Virus record (IMG/VR): IMGVR_UViG_3300028844_005888
Location: 1 to 21,573 of that record
Reading direction: 5' to 3' (one strand)
Length of the DNA: 21,573 bases
Source: a virus
In this document: positions 6,666-17,771 of the stretch, one piece after another
Layout of the letters: each line of letters starts with the position of its first letter
Numbering within the stretch: the first letter of the stretch is position 1
Notes under the pieces: model-generated
What the model saw: only the letters and a program-made list of their open reading frames with translations
Database searches by the model: none
Told to the model about the DNA's origin: nothing
Translations under genes and position numbers: made by a program

Positions 6666-7127
6666 ATGACTTTTTGGAAATGGTGGACTAGTATAGTGAT
6701 ATTAGCATTATCACTTGGATTTATACAGTACAATATTGATATACTTGGATTTATATATGAAAATGATCCTACAAGAATAACTATGTTAATAGCTTCCATC
6801 TTTTTACTTTCAACTATAAAAGTTGGAATTGAAAGTTGGAAAAGACAGTTTTCATATGATAATCAAGATGAACTAAGCATGGTTTGGTTTATATCTGATG
6901 CTGTTATGTCTATAGGCATGATAGGAACTTTAGTTGGCTTTATTATTGTTCTTACAACAACCTTTACAGAAATAGACACAACTTCGGCACAAGCTATGAA
7001 AGAAGTGATTAGTAAACTAGCACAAGGTATGGGAATTGCGTTGTTGACTACACTTACTGGACTGGTAACTTCCGTTATTTTAAAATTGCAGTTAGTAATG
7101 CTGGATACAGATGATGAAAAAATATAG
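6666..7127 (+). CDS. MotA/TolQ/ExbB-like proton channel protein
   Basis: A 153-residue protein with four hydrophobic segments: about 8-30, 37-54, 72-98 and 119-142. The last two carry the family signature: SIGMIGTLVGFIIVL (82-96), like the IGxxGTVxG motif of ExbB and TolQ, and GMGIALLTTLTGLVTS (121-136), like the GxxxALxTTxxGL motif of the final helix. In the known family, five such subunits form a ring round a two-copy MotB/ExbD/TolR partner and turn proton flow into rotation or force. The next gene is exactly such a partner and overlaps by 17 nt. GAGGA precedes ATG 6666. It is shorter than ExbB or TolQ (about 230-240), chiefly in the cytoplasmic part. Confidence 0.75.
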   Translation: MTFWKWWTSIVILALSLGFIQYNIDILGFIYENDPTRITMLIASIFLLSTIKVGIESWKRQFSYDNQDELSMVWFISDAVMSIGMIGTLVGFIIVLTTTFTEIDTTSAQAMKEVISKLAQGMGIALLTTLTGLVTSVILKLQLVMLDTDDEKI

Positions 7128-7746
7128 TTCAAATTTAGCATTTACCGATCTACTTTTTAATCTACTAATAGGTTTTACAAGCTTACTTTTAATTGCATTT
7201 TTGCTTATCAATCCTATTGCCGAAGAAGGTAAGATTGATCCTAGATCAGAGTTTATCATTACATCTTCATGGGACGATGAATCTGCAATTGATATTGACA
7301 TATGGGTAAAAGGTCCTGACGATACGATTGTTGGATTTCCATCAAAAGATGGTAGGTACATGGTACTTGAGCGTGATGATCTTGGAGATACAAATGATTT
7401 AATTCAATTAAATGGCGATACAATATTAATTCAAAGAAATCTTGAGACACTTTCAATTAATGCGATTGTTCCTGGTGAGTACATTGTGACTGTTCATAAT
7501 TACAGTACATCAATTAGTAATGAAAATGAGGAATATCCTACTCCAGTAACTATTGATATTATGGATATGAATCCAATTTCGCTTGATATGAGTCGTACTG
7601 TAAAAGTTAGACTTAAAGAGGAAGTTTCAGTATTCTCTTTTATGGTAGATGAAGATGGTAATATCTATGATATGAACGATCAAATAGATGTAAAGATTCG
7701 TCCAGAAAAAGGAACACCTAGATCAGATCAATCTCAACAATTTTAG
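7111..7746 (+). CDS. MotB/ExbD-like partner with periplasmic beta domain
   Basis: A 211-residue protein with one N-terminal helix, about 12-34 (TDLLFNLLIGFTSLLLIAFLL), carrying Asp13 at its start, where MotB, ExbD and TolR have their essential proton-binding Asp. The remainder is predicted periplasmic and beta-rich: ESAIDIDIWVKGPDDTIVGF then IVPGEYIVTVHNYS resemble beta-sandwich domains with a D-x-D-x-WV edge. It lacks the OmpA-like peptidoglycan-binding domain of MotB, so its target is unclear. The ATG at 7111 is followed at once by a second one (7114); either may be used. The overlap with the MotA-like gene suggests coupled translation in fixed ratio. Confidence 0.7.
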   Translation: MMKKYSSNLAFTDLLFNLLIGFTSLLLIAFLLINPIAEEGKIDPRSEFIITSSWDDESAIDIDIWVKGPDDTIVGFPSKDGRYMVLERDDLGDTNDLIQLNGDTILIQRNLETLSINAIVPGEYIVTVHNYSTSISNENEEYPTPVTIDIMDMNPISLDMSRTVKVRLKEEVSVFSFMVDEDGNIYDMNDQIDVKIRPEKGTPRSDQSQQF

Positions 7747-8938: not shown

Positions 8939-9000
8939 GTTAAAGTCGATGTTTTCTTTCTTTTTTAAACTTAGAGCCAGTTTTACTGGCTCTTTTTTTT
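8939..9000 (+). ncRNA. Candidate 60-nt small RNA
   Basis: Bounded by the promoter at 8904 and the terminator at 8973-9000. The only ATG inside (8950) has no ribosome site and its frame runs through the terminator. The 5' half has a pyrimidine-rich single-stranded stretch (8952-8966) containing TTTCTTTCTTT, complementary to the AAAGAAAGAAA just before the ATG at 2477 (minus strand) and, over 8-9 nt, to the leaders at 2609-2617 and near 3165. This could be a small regulatory RNA, or just a by-product of a terminator shielding the late operon from early transcription. Confidence 0.5.
8973..9000 (+). terminator. Intrinsic terminator
   Basis: Perfect 8-bp stem AGAGCCAG/CTGGCTCT (8973-8980/8986-8993), TTTTA loop, then seven more Ts (8994-9000). 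It separates early-type transcription from the late operon. Confidence 0.9.
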
Positions 9001-9001
9001 A

Positions 9002-9009
9002 TATAAATA
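9002..9009 (+). promoter_or_regulatory. T4-type late promoter
   Basis: TATAAATA directly after the terminator's T run and about 35 nt before ATG 9044. Placement between a strong terminator and a four-gene virion operon is what a late promoter would need. Confidence 0.65.
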
Positions 9010-9043: not shown

Positions 9044-10261
9044 ATGAGAGACTTTCGTACTTTTATTACAGAACAGAAAAATACTCATATGACTCATATA
9101 GAAGATAAAGTGTTATATGGTGGAGTAAAAGGTACAAGAGAAGCTATTTTTGCATTAATTGGTATGCGAGATATGTTATCGGGTGTTAAGAAAGGAAACG
9201 TAAGTGTTAAATGGGACGGTGCTCCTGCTGTATTCGCTGGTATTGATCCGAGTGATAACCGCTTTTTTGTTGCCAAAAAAGGCATATTCAATAAAAACCC
9301 TAAGGTCTATAAATCTCCAGCTGATATTGATGCTGATACTTCTGGCGACCTTAATGCTAAGTTACAAGACGCACTCAAATACTTGCCGGAATTGGGAATC
9401 AAAGGCGTGGTCCAAGGAGACTTCTTATATTCCCGAGATGATTTGTCAAATCAAACAATTGCCGGAAAAAAATATACTACCTTTCATCCTAACACATTGA
9501 TTTATGCAATAGACCAAGGTTCGCCTGCAGCAAAAGATATAAAAAATTCTAAAATAGGTATTGTTTGGCACACTACATATACTGGAGATTCATTTGAGAA
9601 TATGAAAGCTAGTTATGGTGTGAATATAAAGAAATTTAAAAAATCTAAAAATGTTTGGTCTCAAGATGCCATGCTAAGAGATATGACAGGCATTACAATG
9701 TCTGCAAAAGATACAACTGAAGTGAATAAACAATTGACTGAAATAGGTAAATTATTTAATCAGATTTCTAGTTCTACACTCAAGCAATTAGAGACTAATG
9801 AAGATTTAGCTAAATCGATAGAAACTTTTAACAATACATATGTACGTCAAGGACAAATTATAAAAGATACTCAAAAACATGTCAATAATTTAATTCAATG
9901 GCACAAAGATAAGTTCCAAAAAGAAATCGATAAGAGAAAAACTGATAAGGGCAAATTAGCACAAAAGAATAAAAGAGATGATCTGTTGAAATTTTTTTCA
10001 GAAACTAACAAATCCAATCTAAAAAAGATGTTCGATCTGCAAAAATTGATAGTTCTAGTTAAATTGAAACTTATAAATATACTTAATAGAATCAAAAATT
10101 ATGATGTATTTGTTAAAACCAAAGATGGTTTTAAAGTATCTGGTGATGAAGGCTATGTAGCAATTGATAAACTTGGTGGTGACGCAGTGAAACTTGTTGA
10201 TCGTATGGAATTTTCATACAACAACTTTTCACCAGAAATTTTAAAAGGATGGGAAAAATAA
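9044..10261 (+). CDS. DUF6267-type protein with ligase-like motifs
   Basis: A 405-residue protein typical of marine T4-like phages, which I recognise as DUF6267. The core holds KWDG (56-59) in VSVKWDGAPAVFAG, then FFVAKKG (74-80), GDFLYS (125-130), and near the end DEGYVAI (368-374) and AVKLVDR (381-387). These resemble motifs I, III, IV and V of ATP-dependent ligases and capping enzymes, where the motif I Lys carries the nucleotide. A long helical Lys-rich insert (about 230-350) separates III from IV, which is unusual. The N-terminus MRDFRTFITE ends in IxE at residue 10, like the T4 capsid-targeting peptide cut by the prohead protease, so it may be packaged. Start ATG 9044, AAAGG upstream. 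Confidence 0.75.
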   Translation: MRDFRTFITEQKNTHMTHIEDKVLYGGVKGTREAIFALIGMRDMLSGVKKGNVSVKWDGAPAVFAGIDPSDNRFFVAKKGIFNKNPKVYKSPADIDADTSGDLNAKLQDALKYLPELGIKGVVQGDFLYSRDDLSNQTIAGKKYTTFHPNTLIYAIDQGSPAAKDIKNSKIGIVWHTTYTGDSFENMKASYGVNIKKFKKSKNVWSQDAMLRDMTGITMSAKDTTEVNKQLTEIGKLFNQISSSTLKQLETNEDLAKSIETFNNTYVRQGQIIKDTQKHVNNLIQWHKDKFQKEIDKRKTDKGKLAQKNKRDDLLKFFSETNKSNLKKMFDLQKLIVLVKLKLINILNRIKNYDVFVKTKDGFKVSGDEGYVAIDKLGGDAVKLVDRMEFSYNNFSPEILKGWEK

Positions 10262-10263
10262 GA

Positions 10264-13200
10264 ATGCAAAGTTTTAAAGAAAGTCTTTGGGCTAATATTC
10301 ATAAGAAAAGAAAAGAAGGCAGACCTATGCGAAAGCCTGGTTCTAAAGGCGCTCCTACAGACCAAGATTTTAAAAGTGCGCGAGGTGAGTCCGCTGAAGT
10401 AAACGAAATTTCTCCAGAAAAGAAAAAAGCATACAAAAGCAAAGCAGAAAGAGATTTGCCACAACGTACAAAGTATGCCAATAATTATCAAAATGCTGCT
10501 AAAGCCGATCCATCAAATGCAGATTATAAGAAGCGCGGAGATGCCCATCGCCGTAAAGAAAAGAATCGCATGAAAGGCATTGCATCTGTTACTGAGAAAA
10601 ATTGTGGTTGTGGAAAAACTCCCTGCGAAACATATGGTGAAAACTATAGTGAAGGTTTTATGGACACTATGAAACAATTAGTGCCAGGTGCTAGAGGAAA
10701 ACCACAGAAACCACAGCAAGGTAAAAAAACTGCCATGGAAATGCAGTTTCCATATGCCCGTTTATCAGTTCATAGAATGATAGTAGCTTTACGAAAAGCA
10801 AGGGGCACTGCTATGAAGGGTAAAGCGCAGGGGAAAGACCGTAGAGAAAACGAAAGAAGTTTAGGTTTTATTTTAGCTCATGTTGAAGATATAGCAAGAA
10901 ATCGGCACACCGAACAACCAAACAGTGGCAGGCAGATTCATGATGAAGGGAATATAGACGATGCAACCCAACAATATTTTATGGACAAAATTAGACAAAA
11001 CGATTGGACAAAAGCTGATCAGGAAATTTTAAATGCTATGGTTGGTAACGGAACAGATGACAATACAAAGGGTGGTGCATATCATGCAAGATCGTTGGCC
11101 CACGATATCGCTCTTTCGGTAAAGTATGCAAAGAAAGATGCTGGTATTAAAGAATCTGTTAATGAAGGTTTTATGGACACTATGAAACAATTAGTGCCGG
11201 GCGCAAAAGGAAAGCCTGCAAAAAAACTTAATGCAAAAAAACTTAATGCAGAACAAGTTAAAATATCTAAACAAATAGATAAAAAATTAAAATTAATTGA
11301 TGGTTTAATACAAAAAGTGCGACCACTAGGCGGTCAAATTGGTGGATTGGTGAGATTTAGCAAACTTCCGATTGAAAAAATGACTCCAAAAGATTTGTAT
11401 AGAGTATTGAACGATTGGTACGATTCTATAGAAGATGAATTAGACAATGGTGATGATAGTGCCGTTTTATCGAAAAAATATGGACGTTCAGTGGAAGACC
11501 TTCATGAACGCCTCGAAGAACTGGCACTTAAAATAAAAGATTATATGTATGCTTCTGGATATGATGTTCCACACGGTGGTGCAAAATTTCAATATCGATG
11601 GTTGAACAAAGTTGATTTTAGTGCTTCAAAGAGAACAGATGCAAAATGGTTGAAAATGAATGAATCTGTTGATGAAGGTTTTATGGACACATTCTTGGGC
11701 AGAAATATGAAAAAGGGCAATGTTGATAAGAAAAGAGTAAAAAAATCTAAAAATTCAGAACAAGTTAAATTATCTACAGAAATAGATAGAAAATTAAGAT
11801 TGATAGATGACTTAATGCAAAAAGTGCGACCATTGGGCGGCAAGCTTGGAAAATTAATGGCATTTCGCAAACTTCCGATTGAAAAAATGACTCCAAAGGG
11901 TATGTACTTAGCCTTGAATGATTGGTGGTCATCTATAGAAGCTGATTTAGATGACGACTCTGAAGATGATAATGAAAAGTATGCACAATCAGCAGAAAAA
12001 CTTTATGATCTTTGGGAAGAAGTAGGATTTAAACTAAGTGACTATATGTGGGCTTCTGGATATAATATTAAGGGAATCGGTCAGATGGCGAAGATAGGTT
12101 TTCCCGCTAAAAAGAGAACAGATCCAGAATGGTTGAAAATGAATGAATCTGTTGATGAAGGTTTCATGGACGCCATTCTAGGCAAAAATATGAAAAAGCG
12201 CGCAGAAGGAAATGCAGAACAAACTAAAATAGCTACGGATATTAATAGAAAATTAACATTAATTGATGGTTTAATGAAAAAGGTAAAACCTCTAGGCGGC
12301 AAGATGACTAGGTTGACTTCATTTCGCAAGACACCAATCAAAAAAATGACTCCAAAAGATTTGTATAGAGCATTGAATGATTGGTACTTATCTATAGATG
12401 ATTATCTCAATGACAATCCTGAAGTTGATAAACGTCATGGGCCCACAGTAGTCAAACTTCATAGTGTTTGGGAAGAAGTAGCAGATAAAGTACAAGACTA
12501 TATGTGGGCTTCTGGATACAATGTTAAACGCGGCGCGCAGAGCAAAGGGGGAAATATCATTGCTGATGTAATAAAGCCCGGCGGTCCTGTCATGGTACAG
12601 ACGAAAAAATTGAAAGTTGATGGAAAACTGGTGGATATTGATTATAATGTGCCAAAGAGAACAGATGCAAAATGGTTGAAAATGAATGAATCTAGAGTCA
12701 AAAACGTGGTAAGAGGAATGGGGGTTGATCCTGATCTTGTAATGAGAGGAATGGGAAAAGGTCCACATGCCGCAAAAGATAAGGCAAGAGCAGCAAAAGA
12801 ACCGAAAAAAACATTAAAATCTAGGGCTAAGAATGTGGCAAGAGGTATGGGTGTTGATCCAGATAATGTAATGAGAGGAATGGGTTTCAAAGAAGCTTCA
12901 GAACTTGATGAAAATAAAGCTGGGCGCCCCGTTTACTATTCAGTTGATCTTAATCATCAAATTCTGAAAGTGCATGATAGCAAAGAAGCTGGTATGAAAT
13001 ATAAAGTAGGCGGCGATGGACCAGATGGACATTTTTTAGTAAAAACAATTAGCAAAGCCCAAGGCAAAAAGCAAGTTGGGCGTTTTGTTGGGCGTCTGGT
13101 TAGCCGGCATTTAGACAAACAACCCTTTCCACACGATGATGGACCACATTATTCTGTACATAAAGAATCTGTTGAACTTGATGAATCAGTTTATGATAAA

Positions 13201-13935
13201 AAGTTGGCTCAAGCTTGGAAAAAAGTTAAATCTCTTCCTAATGTCCGAGGCATAAGTAATTCTGGCCAAAATCATGCAAAGAAACTATCTTCTTTGTTAA
13301 AAGGTAGTCCCGATAAACTTACATTTGAGAAATTAGAATTGGCTCTTGGTACTTATGAGACTCACGCATATAAGGCTGCAGAAGATAAGACAAATCCACA
13401 TGGAAAAGAAGACCTAGCAAAACTACAGGAATTTTGTGATTCGGTAGATGAAGTTATTGGTGCAATGAAAAATCTGCATCAAAGTAAACTTAAAGAAAGC
13501 CTTGAAGAAAATTATATGGCATGTAAAGATTGTGGTGATGAATTTGCAAAACCTACAACTGATTGTGAAAATGACTGTTATGATGAAAATGGTAGTCATT
13601 GGGAGTCTGTTGATGAAGCGTTGAGTATGCAACAAAGACTTGCTAGAGGTAGATCCGCTAGAAGAAATAAACAGAAAATGGCTCGTGGTAGAGAACGCGC
13701 TAAAAGAAAAGTTGCTACTAAAGATGTTCTGATGAAAAGAGCAAGAAAAGCAGCAAGAAAAGCACTATATAAAAAGTTGACAAAAAATGCTACAGACTTG
13801 TCTCCGGCAAGAAAAAAAGAACTTGAGACAAAGCTTCAGAAACCACAAATGCAAAAAGTGGTACATAGATTAGCTAAGAAGTTAGTGCCTAAAATTAAAA
13901 AAGCTGAAACTCAAAGAAGGTCAGGCTCAAAATAA
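10264..13935 (+). CDS. Giant modular head-core/polyprotein candidate
   Basis: A 1223-residue highly charged, basic protein starting at ATG 10264, 2 nt after the previous stop; an ATG at 10249 would overlap. Parts in order: MQSFKESLWANIHKKRKEG start typical of marine phage core proteins; Cys motif CGCGKTPC (from 114); a helical module after SEGFMD; three homologous modules of 160-180 residues (297-466, 467-627, 628-808), each opening ESV(N/D)EGFMD and ending (A/P)(K/E)WLKMN; a duplicated RGMGVDPD motif (about 809 and 853); a module closed by KESVELDE; a possible zinc ribbon CxxC-x10-CxxxC (1087-1105); and a strongly basic Arg/Lys tail. The recurring tags look like protease sites between units, and the basic tail could bind packaged DNA. 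Function is inferred. Confidence 0.8.
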   Translation: MQSFKESLWANIHKKRKEGRPMRKPGSKGAPTDQDFKSARGESAEVNEISPEKKKAYKSKAERDLPQRTKYANNYQNAAKADPSNADYKKRGDAHRRKEKNRMKGIASVTEKNCGCGKTPCETYGENYSEGFMDTMKQLVPGARGKPQKPQQGKKTAMEMQFPYARLSVHRMIVALRKARGTAMKGKAQGKDRRENERSLGFILAHVEDIARNRHTEQPNSGRQIHDEGNIDDATQQYFMDKIRQNDWTKADQEILNAMVGNGTDDNTKGGAYHARSLAHDIALSVKYAKKDAGIKESVNEGFMDTMKQLVPGAKGKPAKKLNAKKLNAEQVKISKQIDKKLKLIDGLIQKVRPLGGQIGGLVRFSKLPIEKMTPKDLYRVLNDWYDSIEDELDNGDDSAVLSKKYGRSVEDLHERLEELALKIKDYMYASGYDVPHGGAKFQYRWLNKVDFSASKRTDAKWLKMNESVDEGFMDTFLGRNMKKGNVDKKRVKKSKNSEQVKLSTEIDRKLRLIDDLMQKVRPLGGKLGKLMAFRKLPIEKMTPKGMYLALNDWWSSIEADLDDDSEDDNEKYAQSAEKLYDLWEEVGFKLSDYMWASGYNIKGIGQMAKIGFPAKKRTDPEWLKMNESVDEGFMDAILGKNMKKRAEGNAEQTKIATDINRKLTLIDGLMKKVKPLGGKMTRLTSFRKTPIKKMTPKDLYRALNDWYLSIDDYLNDNPEVDKRHGPTVVKLHSVWEEVADKVQDYMWASGYNVKRGAQSKGGNIIADVIKPGGPVMVQTKKLKVDGKLVDIDYNVPKRTDAKWLKMNESRVKNVVRGMGVDPDLVMRGMGKGPHAAKDKARAAKEPKKTLKSRAKNVARGMGVDPDNVMRGMGFKEASELDENKAGRPVYYSVDLNHQILKVHDSKEAGMKYKVGGDGPDGHFLVKTISKAQGKKQVGRFVGRLVSRHLDKQPFPHDDGPHYSVHKESVELDESVYDKKLAQAWKKVKSLPNVRGISNSGQNHAKKLSSLLKGSPDKLTFEKLELALGTYETHAYKAAEDKTNPHGKEDLAKLQEFCDSVDEVIGAMKNLHQSKLKESLEENYMACKDCGDEFAKPTTDCENDCYDENGSHWESVDEALSMQQRLARGRSARRNKQKMARGRERAKRKVATKDVLMKRARKAARKALYKKLTKNATDLSPARKKELETKLQKPQMQKVVHRLAKKLVPKIKKAETQRRSGSK
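10651..11198 (+). repeat. 35-nt direct repeat at two module starts
   Basis: Bases 10651-10685 recur exactly at 11164-11198 and encode EGFMDTMKQLVP in both. Identity at silent positions implies recent duplication or gene conversion of module starts. Confidence 0.85.
11152..12687 (+). repeat. Three tandem protein modules
   Basis: Units 11152-11661, 11662-12144 and 12145-12687. Each contains ESV(N/D)EGFMD, a helix KLxLIDxLxxKV(R/K)PLGG, a core P(I)xKMTPKxxYxxLNDW(Y/W)xSI, then DYM(Y/W)ASGY and KRTD(A/P)(K/E)WLKMN. Units differ by many substitutions between the conserved blocks, so the array is older than the 35-nt repeat. Confidence 0.9.
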
Positions 13936-13936
13936 T

Positions 13937-15481
13937 ATGGTAAATTTTACATCATTTAGACAATATTTAGTTGAAGAAGAAAAAACTGTATACTTTACTT
14001 TTGGTAGAATGAATCCTCCTACCATAGGACATGGTCTTTTATTAAGTGTACTAGCTAAAAAAGCGGGTCGTAATGCATATAGAGTATATGTATCACAATC
14101 AAGTGACCCTAAGAAAAATCCTTTATCTTATAATGATAAAGTAAAATATTTGCGTAAAATGTTTCCAAAACAATCCCGTAGTATTATGATGAATATGTCA
14201 GTAAAAAATGTTTTCGATGCTGCTACTGCCATGCATGATGATGGATTTAAAAATGCTATTATGGTAATAGGAAGTGATAGAGTAAAAGAGTTTGATGTAT
14301 TACTTCAAAAATATAATGGTGTTAAAGGTAAACATGGCTTCTATCACTTTAAAACATTAAGTGTGATAAGTGCTGGTGAACGTGACCCAGATGCTGAAGG
14401 TGTACAAGGTGCGTCTGCAACAAAACAAAGAAAAGCCGCTACAGATAACGACTTTATAGCATTTGCTCAAGGCTTACCGAAAACTATGTCAGATAAAGAC
14501 GCAAAAGGTCTTTTCAATGCAGTTCGTAATGGAATGGGTTTGAAAGAAGCGCAAGAATTTAAAAATCATATACAATTAAAAAGCGTTTCTGATATTAGAG
14601 AAAAATTTGTTTCTGGTAATATTTTTAATGTTAATGACTTTGTAATGATTAAAGACATTCAAGAAAAAGCAATGATAACTTTTAAAGGCTCAAATTATTT
14701 AATTCTAGAAAAAGAAGATGGATCCACTTGTAGAAAATGGATTGATTCTGTTGAAGCTATTGAAGAATCTTATGAAATAGGAACAGATGAATATTTAAAA
14801 CATGCTAAGAAAATGACTCCTGGCGAAGCTACTGAAGTTGGACAAGACCCAGACATTAAAGATAAGCCTGGTACTCAACCATCAGTATACTATAAGGGCA
14901 TCAAAACAAAATCTACTAAAGTTGCAAGAAACAATCATTTTTCTAAGGGTGCTAAAATGGATGATGATAATCCAGCAGCATATAAGCCAGCGCCTGGTGA
15001 TGCAACAGCCAAAACTAAGCCGTCAAAGCATACGAAAAAGTTTAAACAAATGTATGGTGAAAATAAGGCAGAAGTTGCAGCAAAAGAAAAGATAGCTAGA
15101 GAAAAAGAGTCCGACGCTAAAAGACATGATAGAATGTTAGATAGAGCAAGATTACTAGATACAAAAACTAAAAATAATGTTGCCAAAGAAGAATATGATA
15201 TGACGAAAGCATTTCAAGATTTCATAACAGATTTAGATGAAGAAATTTTAAGTGAAGAAGCTTCTTCTGGATTAAAGAAAAAAGCCGAAAAATCTGGAAT
15301 GCCTGTAGGAATTCTTAGAAAAGTATATAATAGAGGAATGGCAGCATGGCGCACAGGACATAGACCTGGCACAACACCTCAGCAATGGGGAATGGCAAGA
15401 GTTAATTCATTCGTAACAAAATCCTCAGGAACCTGGGGCAAAGCAGATTCCGATCTAGCAGCAAAAGTAAGGAAAAAATAA
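13937..15481 (+). CDS. Adenylyl/cytidylyltransferase-like fusion protein
   Basis: A 514-residue protein starting 1 nt after the previous stop. Residues 18-190 are a HIGH-superfamily nucleotidyltransferase: GRMNPPTIGH (23-32), GSDR (112-115) and GASATKQR (158-165), the counterparts of the HxGH and ISSTxxR motifs of NMN or pantetheine-phosphate adenylyltransferases, so the catalytic set looks complete. A strand-rich module follows (about 215-275: NDFVMIKDIQEKAMITFKG, then SNYLILEKEDG). The last 72 residues (GLKKKAEKSGMPVGILRKV, then TGHRPGTTPQQWGMARVNSF) match the DUF5824-type domain of phage proteins. The start MVNFTSFRQYLVE fits a capsid-targeting peptide with LxE. The substrate is unknown; an NAD-related nucleotide is possible. 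Confidence 0.8.
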   Translation: MVNFTSFRQYLVEEEKTVYFTFGRMNPPTIGHGLLLSVLAKKAGRNAYRVYVSQSSDPKKNPLSYNDKVKYLRKMFPKQSRSIMMNMSVKNVFDAATAMHDDGFKNAIMVIGSDRVKEFDVLLQKYNGVKGKHGFYHFKTLSVISAGERDPDAEGVQGASATKQRKAATDNDFIAFAQGLPKTMSDKDAKGLFNAVRNGMGLKEAQEFKNHIQLKSVSDIREKFVSGNIFNVNDFVMIKDIQEKAMITFKGSNYLILEKEDGSTCRKWIDSVEAIEESYEIGTDEYLKHAKKMTPGEATEVGQDPDIKDKPGTQPSVYYKGIKTKSTKVARNNHFSKGAKMDDDNPAAYKPAPGDATAKTKPSKHTKKFKQMYGENKAEVAAKEKIAREKESDAKRHDRMLDRARLLDTKTKNNVAKEEYDMTKAFQDFITDLDEEILSEEASSGLKKKAEKSGMPVGILRKVYNRGMAAWRTGHRPGTTPQQWGMARVNSFVTKSSGTWGKADSDLAAKVRKK

Positions 15482-15482
15482 A

Positions 15483-17771
15483 ATGAAAGATGTTTTTAAA
15501 TTTTTGGAAGAACAGAATGAAAATTTTGATCATCTGTTAGACGAAATTACAGAAGAAGATATTGATATCGCAATAGAAGAAACTTTTGAAGAAGAAGTTA
15601 AAAATGAAGGTATCATTGATAGAATGCTAGCCGGAAGAAACAAAGAAGGTTCTAAAAAGTGGGTGACTAAAAAACCAGAGACCCAAGAAGGTAGAAAAAA
15701 CAAACTTGGTCCTCGCACTAAACAATCAGATCCTTATGAAAGTAATGAAGCTTTCAAATCTCACATGATGTATGATCCAAAAACCGGAAAGGGTTATAAA
15801 GCGGAAAAAGAAGAAGATCATTTAAGAATGAAAAAAATGGGTTATACTCATGACAAAATGGAATCTGTTGATCTTAGTCAATATCGCAAAGGTGGTTCTA
15901 AAGCAGGAAAGCTACCGCCACATCTTGCTAAATTTATTGATCCTAAAACTGGCAACTTTACAAAAGATGCTGAAGCTAGAATTCAAAAAGGTAGAAAAAG
16001 TAAAGCTAGTTTTAAAGATGTAACGCCCAAAGGTTATGGTCCAAACGAATCTGTTGAACTTGATGAGGGAATTGTTACTAAAACTTTGACCGGATTAGTT
16101 GACAAGGGATTGAATAAAGTCTTAGACAAACTAGAAAAAATGACAGGCAAACATCTTGGACTTGTGCAGAAGTCAAAAATTCCATCTACTGGTAAAGACA
16201 AGGCAAACAATGTTTTGAATTATATTGGGACCCCAAAGTTTCACGATGCCAAAAAATTAAAAAAAGACTCAGAAGATTTTCATCGCAAAGCAAAAAAACA
16301 GTGGACATGGTCAAAAAGAGAAGTCGGAGATTCATTTAGATATTATGGTGACGATGGAAAAATACCAAAAGAACAAAGAGAAATGGTTAGCGATCTGCAA
16401 GCAGAGATGCAGAAAATCATAGACATGCATACACAATTAGAAAAAATGATGCAAACTACTGGAAATTCTGTAAAGTATCAAAGAACAATGGAAAAACTAG
16501 AACGTGATACAAATAGAGTTTTTAAAGAAATTGGAAAAGTTACCGAAAGGGGTGATGCCAGATATCGGGCCGCGCAAGGAATTGCCAATCTCAAAAAGGC
16601 AAAGAAAATGACGCATGGAAAACTTAAAAAAGGTTCTTCTGTAAAATTCAGACCATATGCAAATAGGGGTGAATCTGTTGATGAAGAAATAAGCATTGAT
16701 GAAAAGAAAAATTCACAATCAAACTATGATCTTTACCATTCATCATTCTCAGGTGCAATGCAACATGCATATAAACATGCAAAAGATGCTCATGGCATTA
16801 CTGTACATTCTTCAGAGATTGATGATAAAGTTGCAAGTGGACCAAGAAAACCTGTAAATGGTAAAACAAATTCATATCGTTTGAAAGGTGATAAAGGCAA
16901 TATTCAAGTACAAGTCTATAATAGAGGTGGATCAAAACCGTTTGAATTGAATATGTATAAAGAATCTGTAATAGAAGATGCTGAAATGATTATTGAGAAT
17001 GTTTCTCCAAAACAAATTGCTATGTTGAAAAAACAATACTCAAGTATGCCAGATAGACTTCCTTTAGACCAAGCAACGAAAATGAGCAAGATGGTTGCTA
17101 AGTTTGATAAAGCATCTCTTATGAAAGTTGCAAAGGCCGATATTAAATGGTTATCCTCGGCAGCTAAAACCAATCTTATTTCTAAACACGGCGCTACTGC
17201 AAAAGATTTTAAAGAAGATATGTCAGTACATGGCGCACCTTCACATTCTGCAGATAAAAAACCTCAAAACTATCGTAAACCTGATGGCAAAATGGGAGTC
17301 AAAATGGTGCCTATGGATCCTCAGACTACTAGAAAAGAATCTGTTGAACTTGATGAGGTAAAAGGTGCATTAGGAATGGAATCCGCAGCAAAAGCGTTAG
17401 AAAAATACGCTAAAGCTTCTGGTGGAATGGATGAAAAAGATTTCATGACTGCGGCAAGATTGTTGCGTAAAGGTTTAGATATGAAATTGAAAAAATTCGT
17501 AGATGATATGGACACTGAACCTAGAGAAAAAGTTATTACAACTATGGCAAAAACCCTGGGTAAAAAGCCTGTTGAGAAAATGTTTGGTGTAAGACTTCGT
17601 GAAGCTTCAAATTATGTTTCAGAAAAATTGAAACCATCAGATGGTATGGCTGCTTACATAAAAGATTTCGCAAAATCGGATGCACCTTCGCTTAAAGGCA
17701 AAGATGAAAAGAAAAGAAAAGAAATGGCAATTGCCGCTTATGTCTATGCCAAAAGTCGGGCGCGTGACTGA
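15483..17771 (+). CDS. Modular head-core/polyprotein candidate with ESVELDE tags
   Basis: A 762-residue charged protein starting 1 nt after the previous stop, with AAGGA about 11 nt upstream. It begins MKDVFKFLEE, ending LxE at residue 10, as in T4 internal head proteins. Modules in order: an acidic N-terminus; MYDPKTGKGYKAEKEEDHL with MGYTH (about 97-120); ESVDL tag (127); ESVELDE (189-195); a long helical unit (190-395); ESVDEEISIDE (397-407); a module with LYHSSFSGAMQHAYKHAKD and NRGGSKPFELNMY seen in many marine phage proteins (about 413-490); a helical unit; ESVELDE (619-625); and a C-terminal YIKDFAKSDAP(x)n KRKEMAIAAYVYAKS motif. It shares tags but not modules with the 1223-residue protein. 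It is probably a packaged or core protein. Confidence 0.8.
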   Translation: MKDVFKFLEEQNENFDHLLDEITEEDIDIAIEETFEEEVKNEGIIDRMLAGRNKEGSKKWVTKKPETQEGRKNKLGPRTKQSDPYESNEAFKSHMMYDPKTGKGYKAEKEEDHLRMKKMGYTHDKMESVDLSQYRKGGSKAGKLPPHLAKFIDPKTGNFTKDAEARIQKGRKSKASFKDVTPKGYGPNESVELDEGIVTKTLTGLVDKGLNKVLDKLEKMTGKHLGLVQKSKIPSTGKDKANNVLNYIGTPKFHDAKKLKKDSEDFHRKAKKQWTWSKREVGDSFRYYGDDGKIPKEQREMVSDLQAEMQKIIDMHTQLEKMMQTTGNSVKYQRTMEKLERDTNRVFKEIGKVTERGDARYRAAQGIANLKKAKKMTHGKLKKGSSVKFRPYANRGESVDEEISIDEKKNSQSNYDLYHSSFSGAMQHAYKHAKDAHGITVHSSEIDDKVASGPRKPVNGKTNSYRLKGDKGNIQVQVYNRGGSKPFELNMYKESVIEDAEMIIENVSPKQIAMLKKQYSSMPDRLPLDQATKMSKMVAKFDKASLMKVAKADIKWLSSAAKTNLISKHGATAKDFKEDMSVHGAPSHSADKKPQNYRKPDGKMGVKMVPMDPQTTRKESVELDEVKGALGMESAAKALEKYAKASGGMDEKDFMTAARLLRKGLDMKLKKFVDDMDTEPREKVITTMAKTLGKKPVEKMFGVRLREASNYVSEKLKPSDGMAAYIKDFAKSDAPSLKGKDEKKRKEMAIAAYVYAKSRARD

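Follow-up and report, generated by a model that had tools for sequence, protein, structure and literature searches.

In phage T4, the internal proteins IPI, IPII and IPIII and the protein Alt carry a capsid-targeting sequence and are cut by gp21, a protease of the Peptidase S77 family. T4 gp21 cleaves after L/I-x-E, and within the capsid-targeting sequence residues 4 and 7 serve targeting and residues 8 and 10 serve processing (PMC9026906). In phiKZ and SPN3US many head proteins are cut after Glu by a gp21 relative, with several sites in one propeptide (PMC10052503), and for the polyvalent proteins, which are multidomain and packaged for injection, a split into units has been proposed (Iyer et al. 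2017, PMC5512222). Here we describe a four-gene cluster (positions 9044-17771) in IMG/VR record IMGVR_UViG_3300028844_005888, a single 21.6-kb virus record that was analysed at its full length of 21,573 nt (the window) and represents part of the genome of a T4-like marine phage of the Kyanoviridae type. The cluster consists of a DUF6267 gene and genes A, B and C, and it probably encodes proteins packaged inside the phage head. The products of A and C appear to be chains of mostly small, basic modules separated by a short recurring peptide, ESVDE, ESVNE or ESVELDE (the tag). We think it probable that each is a polyprotein from which a gp21-type protease releases internal head proteins, and that the tags are where its modules are shuffled.

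Tags in genes A and C and in related loci

The tags, variants and junctions of the two genes are listed below with their amino acid (aa) positions; a slash marks the expected cut.

10249..13935, +: gene A, putative polyprotein of 1228 aa
10642..10653, +: NYSE/GFMD junction, gene A (aa 132)
11152..11166, +: tag ESVNE/GFMD, gene A (aa 302)
11662..11676, +: tag ESVDE/GFMD, gene A (aa 472)
12145..12159, +: tag ESVDE/GFMD, gene A (aa 633)
12898..12912, +: variant tag SELDE, gene A (aa 884), homology edges at aa 882-890
13165..13185, +: tag ESVELDE, gene A (aa 973), carrying the 20-nt word described below
13438..13452, +: variant tag DSVDE, gene A (aa 1064), homology edges at aa 1065
13495..13509, +: variant tag ESLEE, gene A (aa 1083), homology edges at aa 1085
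13603..13617, +: tag ESVDE preceding the last module of gene A (aa 1119)
15483..17771, +: gene C, putative polyprotein of 762 aa, N-terminus MKDVFKFLEE resembling a capsid-targeting sequence
16047..16067, +: tag ESVELDE, gene C (aa 189), 20-nt word
16671..16685, +: tag ESVDE, gene C (aa 397)
16692-16703, +: SIDE, an I-x-E site between the ESVDE tag and the YDLYH module of gene C
16962..16976, +: degenerate tag ESVIE, end of the YDLYH module of gene C (aa 494)
17337..17357, +: tag ESVELDE, gene C (aa 619), 20-nt word
17616..17624, +: VSE preceding the C-terminal module of gene C, homology edges at aa 710-715, in a linker of low model confidence

An initial annotation of this DNA had placed the start of the region at 10264, which is the second Met of gene A; the open reading frame (ORF) opens at 10249. 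Its observation that an ESV(D/N/EL) tag recurs in two large proteins held up well, as five strict tags were found in A and three in C, eight in all, against 0.01 expected in each gene and about 0.02 in the two together (2000 shuffles). The sites at several junctions are LDE, IDE or LEE, and at others VDE, VNE or VIE. A 20-nt version common to both genes had also been claimed, and the word GAATCTGTTGAACTTGATGA is indeed present at 13165, 16047 and 17337; at the DNA level ESVDE is ESVELDE minus the 6 nt GAACTT.

Among 456 non-redundant ORFs of related viral loci, VELDE was the commonest 5-mer (64 occurrences against 0.18 expected). A scan of IMG/VR for KEEVELDE in all codings gave at least 120 stretches, compared with 8 for the composition-matched control KEELEVDE, in which V and L are exchanged. 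The VELDE DNA pattern was present in 17 of 20 larger records, in 1-5 copies each and often clustered on one strand, and the reversed-pattern control gave 1 match in the same records. Using a looser pattern, 19 proteins contained at least three tags. A HicA-toxin domain (PF07927) spans aa 75-125 of one tag-bearing polyprotein of 1431 aa (locus L143, 1936-6231, minus strand), which also gives a weak intein-splicing match at aa 873-1027. Searches of the literature turned up nothing relevant on the tag word or on polyproteins in T4-like phages, and no description of a DNA-phage polyprotein strategy of this kind was found in the literature searched.

Module boundaries and the tag as a DNA word

In gene A, 56% of homology starts were located at strict tags against a background of 10%, and in gene C 46% of starts and 50% of ends were located there against 13%. 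The mean number of loci with a homology edge was 8.2 per tag position and 1.8 at other positions in A, and 38.8 and 6.5 respectively in C. Across 181 tag-bearing proteins, edges were enriched 2.3- to 2.8-fold within 6-10 aa of a tag when all proteins were compared with each other by BLAST, with correction for composition and a minimum identity; in a cruder run without that correction the breakpoint signal was weak. The expectation that homology in relatives would break at tags was largely borne out, though some homologies pass through them. In an AlphaFold model of C with a mean predicted local distance difference test score (pLDDT) of 64, low-confidence stretches separate confident domains, and all C tags are predicted to fall wholly or mostly within low-pLDDT linkers. 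Compared as sequences, the tags stand between modules, as initially described; the modules had also been called unrelated, which does not apply to those of A starting at aa 302, 472 and 633, as these are tandem relatives of each other.

Thirty-six distinct contexts were found upstream of the DUF5824 module, which occurs on its own as a gene, in a cytidyltransferase fusion, and inside polyproteins; [LIV]xE was present at its N-edge in 34 of them against 20% expected. For the YDLYH module the figure was 40 of 48 contexts against 17% expected. The NRRKA module had an upstream [LIV]xE in 0 of 8 cases, and several proteins have the tag after NRRKA instead; regular-expression anchors for two further modules yielded too few contexts. 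Homologues carry SLEE, QLPE, ELPE, SVDE or SVNE at the GFMD junction that gene A uses, so L and V appear interchangeable at position P3, the first residue of the triplet. The initial suggestion was that LDE fits the T4 rule (I/L)xE and that VDE and VNE are close variants of it; the latter two fall outside the T4 rule itself.

The tag also behaves as a DNA word. VELDE tag pairs within a genome and with unrelated flanks had a nucleotide identity of 0.936, against 0.803 from the codon use of that genome, and 41% of such pairs were exactly identical against 2% expected, so that the proposed comparison of tag codon identity with background codon use came out in favour of the tag. Between genomes, 11.8% of VELDE pairs were exactly identical against 1.8% expected. 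Third-base identity was high from two codons before V through D, was 0.55 at the final Glu, and was at background directly after; the final Glu therefore seems to be kept as an amino acid. Peptide and DNA are both constrained in these alignments. Because the DNA of the tag hardly varies over about 20 nt, modules could be exchanged without loss of frame or cut site. Within the DNA-conserved core of the tag, GTTGAACTT (window 13165-13185 and related tags), there is a short inverted repeat, GTT-G-AAC, which in the EEVELDE form of the tag is AAGTTGAACTT.

Targeting sequences, virion evidence and alternative readings

The following features of the cluster relate to capsid targeting.

9044..10261, +: DUF6267 gene, first of the cluster, N-terminus MRDFRTFITE/Q of the capsid-targeting type
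9044..9073, +: codons of MRDFRTFITE, layout equal to T4 IPII/IPIII MKTYQEFIAE
13937..15481, +: gene B, cytidyltransferase/NMNAT-like domain fused to a DUF5824 module (aa 448-500)
15483..15512, +: codons of MKDVFKFLEE, probable targeting/cleavage site of gene C (translation inspected; rule from PMC9026906)

T4 IPII and IPIII start MKTYQEFIAE/A. N-termini resembling a capsid-targeting sequence were found in 138 of 1829 ORFs of related loci against 13.4 expected; their layout matches that of the T4 internal proteins, and P3 was L in 61, I in 42 and V in 13. Within the cluster, the motif M..[FY]..[FY][LI].E is present in the DUF6267 gene (MRDFRTFITE), with near-matches in C (MKDVFKFLEE) and in B, whose N-terminus is MVNFTSFRQYLVEE and which has LDE..LSE at aa 433-440, upstream of its DUF5824 module. 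In phage C48C1, two modules of the window proteins are separate genes, starting MLSFKQFVSE/V and MITFKKYLEE/K; the former is the last module of A, a 12-kDa protein of pI 12 (MLSFKQFVSE/VLDATQRRK..). Standalone modules begin with a T4-type capsid-targeting start (MKxFxxF[LIV]xE), and their protease site is where the fused protein has a tag-like site. Judged from these alignments, modules have been exchanged between separate genes and polyproteins. Cyanophage Syn9 gp186 (locus L102, 8503-9228) has the start MLTFKQLSE plus a second, internal LLTFKQFNE/G, as if two genes with targeting sequences had been fused.

All 5 complete relatives have an S77 prohead protease (PF03420) and gp23 (PF07068), as do 4 of 15 viral records, which are in many cases fragments. 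The gp23 of relatives has FLSE/A, FLGE/, FLAE/, FLTE/ or LLTE/ at the expected maturation site. ORFs 89-93 of S-SCSM1 are annotated as virion proteins, and the virion proteins of this phage were found by mass spectrometry (PMC9602691); gp154 and gp160 of S-CREM2 were detected in virions (PMC10665884). Tag-bearing proteins of the related loci matched S-SCSM1 ORFs 89, 91, 92 and 93 and S-CREM2 gp154 and gp160. ORF91 starts MKSFLQFLKE/A, KEEVELDE is found inside ORF92, and ORF93, a virion protein of 69 aa, aligns at 64% identity with part of a tag-bearing protein of 936 aa. Between-tag segments are basic, with an isoelectric point (pI) above 9 in 76% compared with 35% of other ORFs. In gene A the main segments are 10-28 kDa with pI 8.6-12, two short pieces near the end being acidic or neutral, and the later segments of gene C have pI 8.8-9.9.

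These results suggest the following sequence of events. The precursor would enter the prohead core, for gene C probably via its N-terminus resembling a capsid-targeting sequence, and A would enter the head as well. The S77 protease of the T4 gp21 type would then cut after the final Glu of each tag ([LIV]-x-E: LDE, IDE, VDE and VNE), by analogy with the T4 site rule, and one precursor would give many small internal proteins. The pieces would remain with the packaged DNA and, by analogy with the T4 internal proteins, may be injected for host takeover or anti-defence. Modules would be gained, lost and reordered by recombination at the tags, with frame and cut site kept. T4-type maturation into small internal proteins, as initially proposed, is supported by the homology edges, the N-edge [LIV]xE, the standalone modules with targeting sequences, the S77 protease and gp23 in relatives, and the virion annotation; cleavage itself we infer, and gene A has no clear N-terminal capsid-targeting sequence. 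The further proposal that tag DNA is the seam at which modules are exchanged agrees with the DNA identity beyond codon use and with the edges at tags, the seam being a statistical inference and its recombination mechanism a conjecture.

Several observations weigh against this interpretation. No protease or capsid gene was recognised in the window fragment itself. The N-terminal motif is absent from gene A, which starts MGKIRMQSFKESLW, and its strict form is present in only 8 of 160 tag-bearing ORFs, not above other ORFs. Most A tags are VxE and so lie outside the T4 L/I-x-E rule, though V does occupy P3 in 13 targeting sequences. Some homologies continue through tags, so neighbouring modules are sometimes inherited together. 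Control 5-mers also show an excess of exact identity, though a smaller one (10.5% against 3.1%), as do acidic control 5-mers (24% against 5%, n=79), so codon context or hidden relatedness may account for some of the DNA signal; the effect looks real, and its size is to be read with care. Finally, the authors of the S-CREM2 study warn that non-structural proteins may contaminate a virion preparation (PMC10665884).

The tags might instead be acidic, flexible linkers in one uncleaved multidomain virion protein, a Glu-rich composition mimicking protease sites. Their position within low-confidence linkers fits this, as does the shuffle test, in which plain [LI]xE showed no enrichment in A or C and enrichment was confined to the tag. 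However, a linker does not need a fixed word, yet VELDE is the commonest 5-mer, and exchanging V and L lowers the matches from at least 120 to 8. Moreover, Glu at P1 and L, I or V at P3 recur at the edge of one module across distinct contexts, and standalone versions carry a targeting sequence and a cut site at the same place. We regard this explanation as unlikely. Somewhat less likely again is that the tag is a recombination word only, with DNA repeats spread by duplication or gene conversion and the peptide without a role. That tag DNA is more alike than codon use explains, both within genomes and between them, and that homology breaks at tags, would be expected in that case, but many tags hold the peptide pattern without the DNA word, e.g. 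GTAGAGTTAGACGAA; QLDE, ELNE and EDVNE, which follow the peptide pattern and not the DNA word, precede DUF5824, and the last Glu is retained though its third base is not conserved.

It is also conceivable that the tag is a docking motif for a scaffold or protease, an internal targeting signal with cutting elsewhere or none. Targeting and processing residues are adjacent in one short T4 N-terminal peptide (PMC9026906), and the internal TFKQFNE copy of Syn9 gp186 resembles a full targeting sequence. The tags, however, lack the aromatic residues 4 and 7 that serve targeting in T4 and keep only the equivalent of processing residues 8 and 10, and we give docking the lowest probability of the three. 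Within the favoured reading of A and C as cleaved polyproteins, ESV(EL)DE may have a dual purpose: the prohead protease would cut at it in the protein, and recombination would use it as a seam in the DNA, which would make the head cargo of marine T4-like phages a combinatorial cassette with modules exchanged in frame and released by prohead cleavage; we consider the chances of this to be about even.

Surroundings of the cluster and comparison with known systems

No Pfam domain above cut-off was found in A or C, and no sequence matches of either to solved structures were found. A Foldseek search of PDB and BFVD with the structural model of C produced no match with E below 1e-3. Upstream of the cluster there is one further feature.

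9003..9009, +: ATAAATA, about 35 nt upstream of the first ATG of the cluster, just after a terminator-like hairpin (about 8974-8999)

After the hairpin in the 8974-9009 region comes TATATAAATA, which precedes the first gene by about 35 nt. Such a layout would be expected for a late transcription unit and could accommodate a late promoter of the T4 type, but the count of the ATAAATA late-promoter motif across the window is at chance level. Elsewhere, window positions 6666-7746 contain a MotA/TolQ/ExbB proton-channel homologue (PF01618, E 1e-7) and, directly after and overlapping it, an ORF of 211 aa with a hydrophobic stretch at its N-terminus. The two lie near further membrane proteins, which is unusual in a phage.

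If the polyprotein reading is correct, the many hypothetical proteins encoded next to the cytidyltransferase gene in cyano-, pelagi- and methylophages would become readable. The tag would mark the cut points of each precursor, so that internal or injected proteins and their boundaries could be predicted from sequence, and a polyprotein strategy would be added to the T4-like phages. In phages as common in the sea as these, it would also offer a direct route to candidate proteins for host takeover or anti-defence, comparable to T4 IPI-III.

The cluster resembles the T4 internal proteins in the N-terminal M-x-x-F/Y-x-x-F-[LIV]-x-E of some cluster members and of standalone modules, in its putative [LI]xE-like sites, in small proteins (here basic modules), in fast module turnover, and in the S77 protease and gp23, here in relatives. 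T4 has one protein per gene and one propeptide, whereas here several modules share an ORF, each junction has its own putative internal site, and P3 is often V. The inner-body and ejection proteins of phiKZ and SPN3US have the prohead protease site S/A-x-E, and nearly all cuts there remove propeptides, whereas the pieces here look like separate products. A and C may share with polyvalent proteins a multidomain organisation, packaging for injection and a proposed split into units. The metallopeptidase (MPTase) and other domains listed for polyvalent proteins were not found in A or C above the Pfam cut-off. Processing by their own metallopeptidase domain has been proposed for polyvalent proteins; Pfam found no peptidase domain in A or C, and self-processing of this type was rejected. 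RNA-virus and retroviral polyproteins likewise have one precursor, a short repeated site and a virus-encoded protease. There is no relationship with them, and in the phages described here the protease would act in trans and the modules appear interchangeable between lineages.

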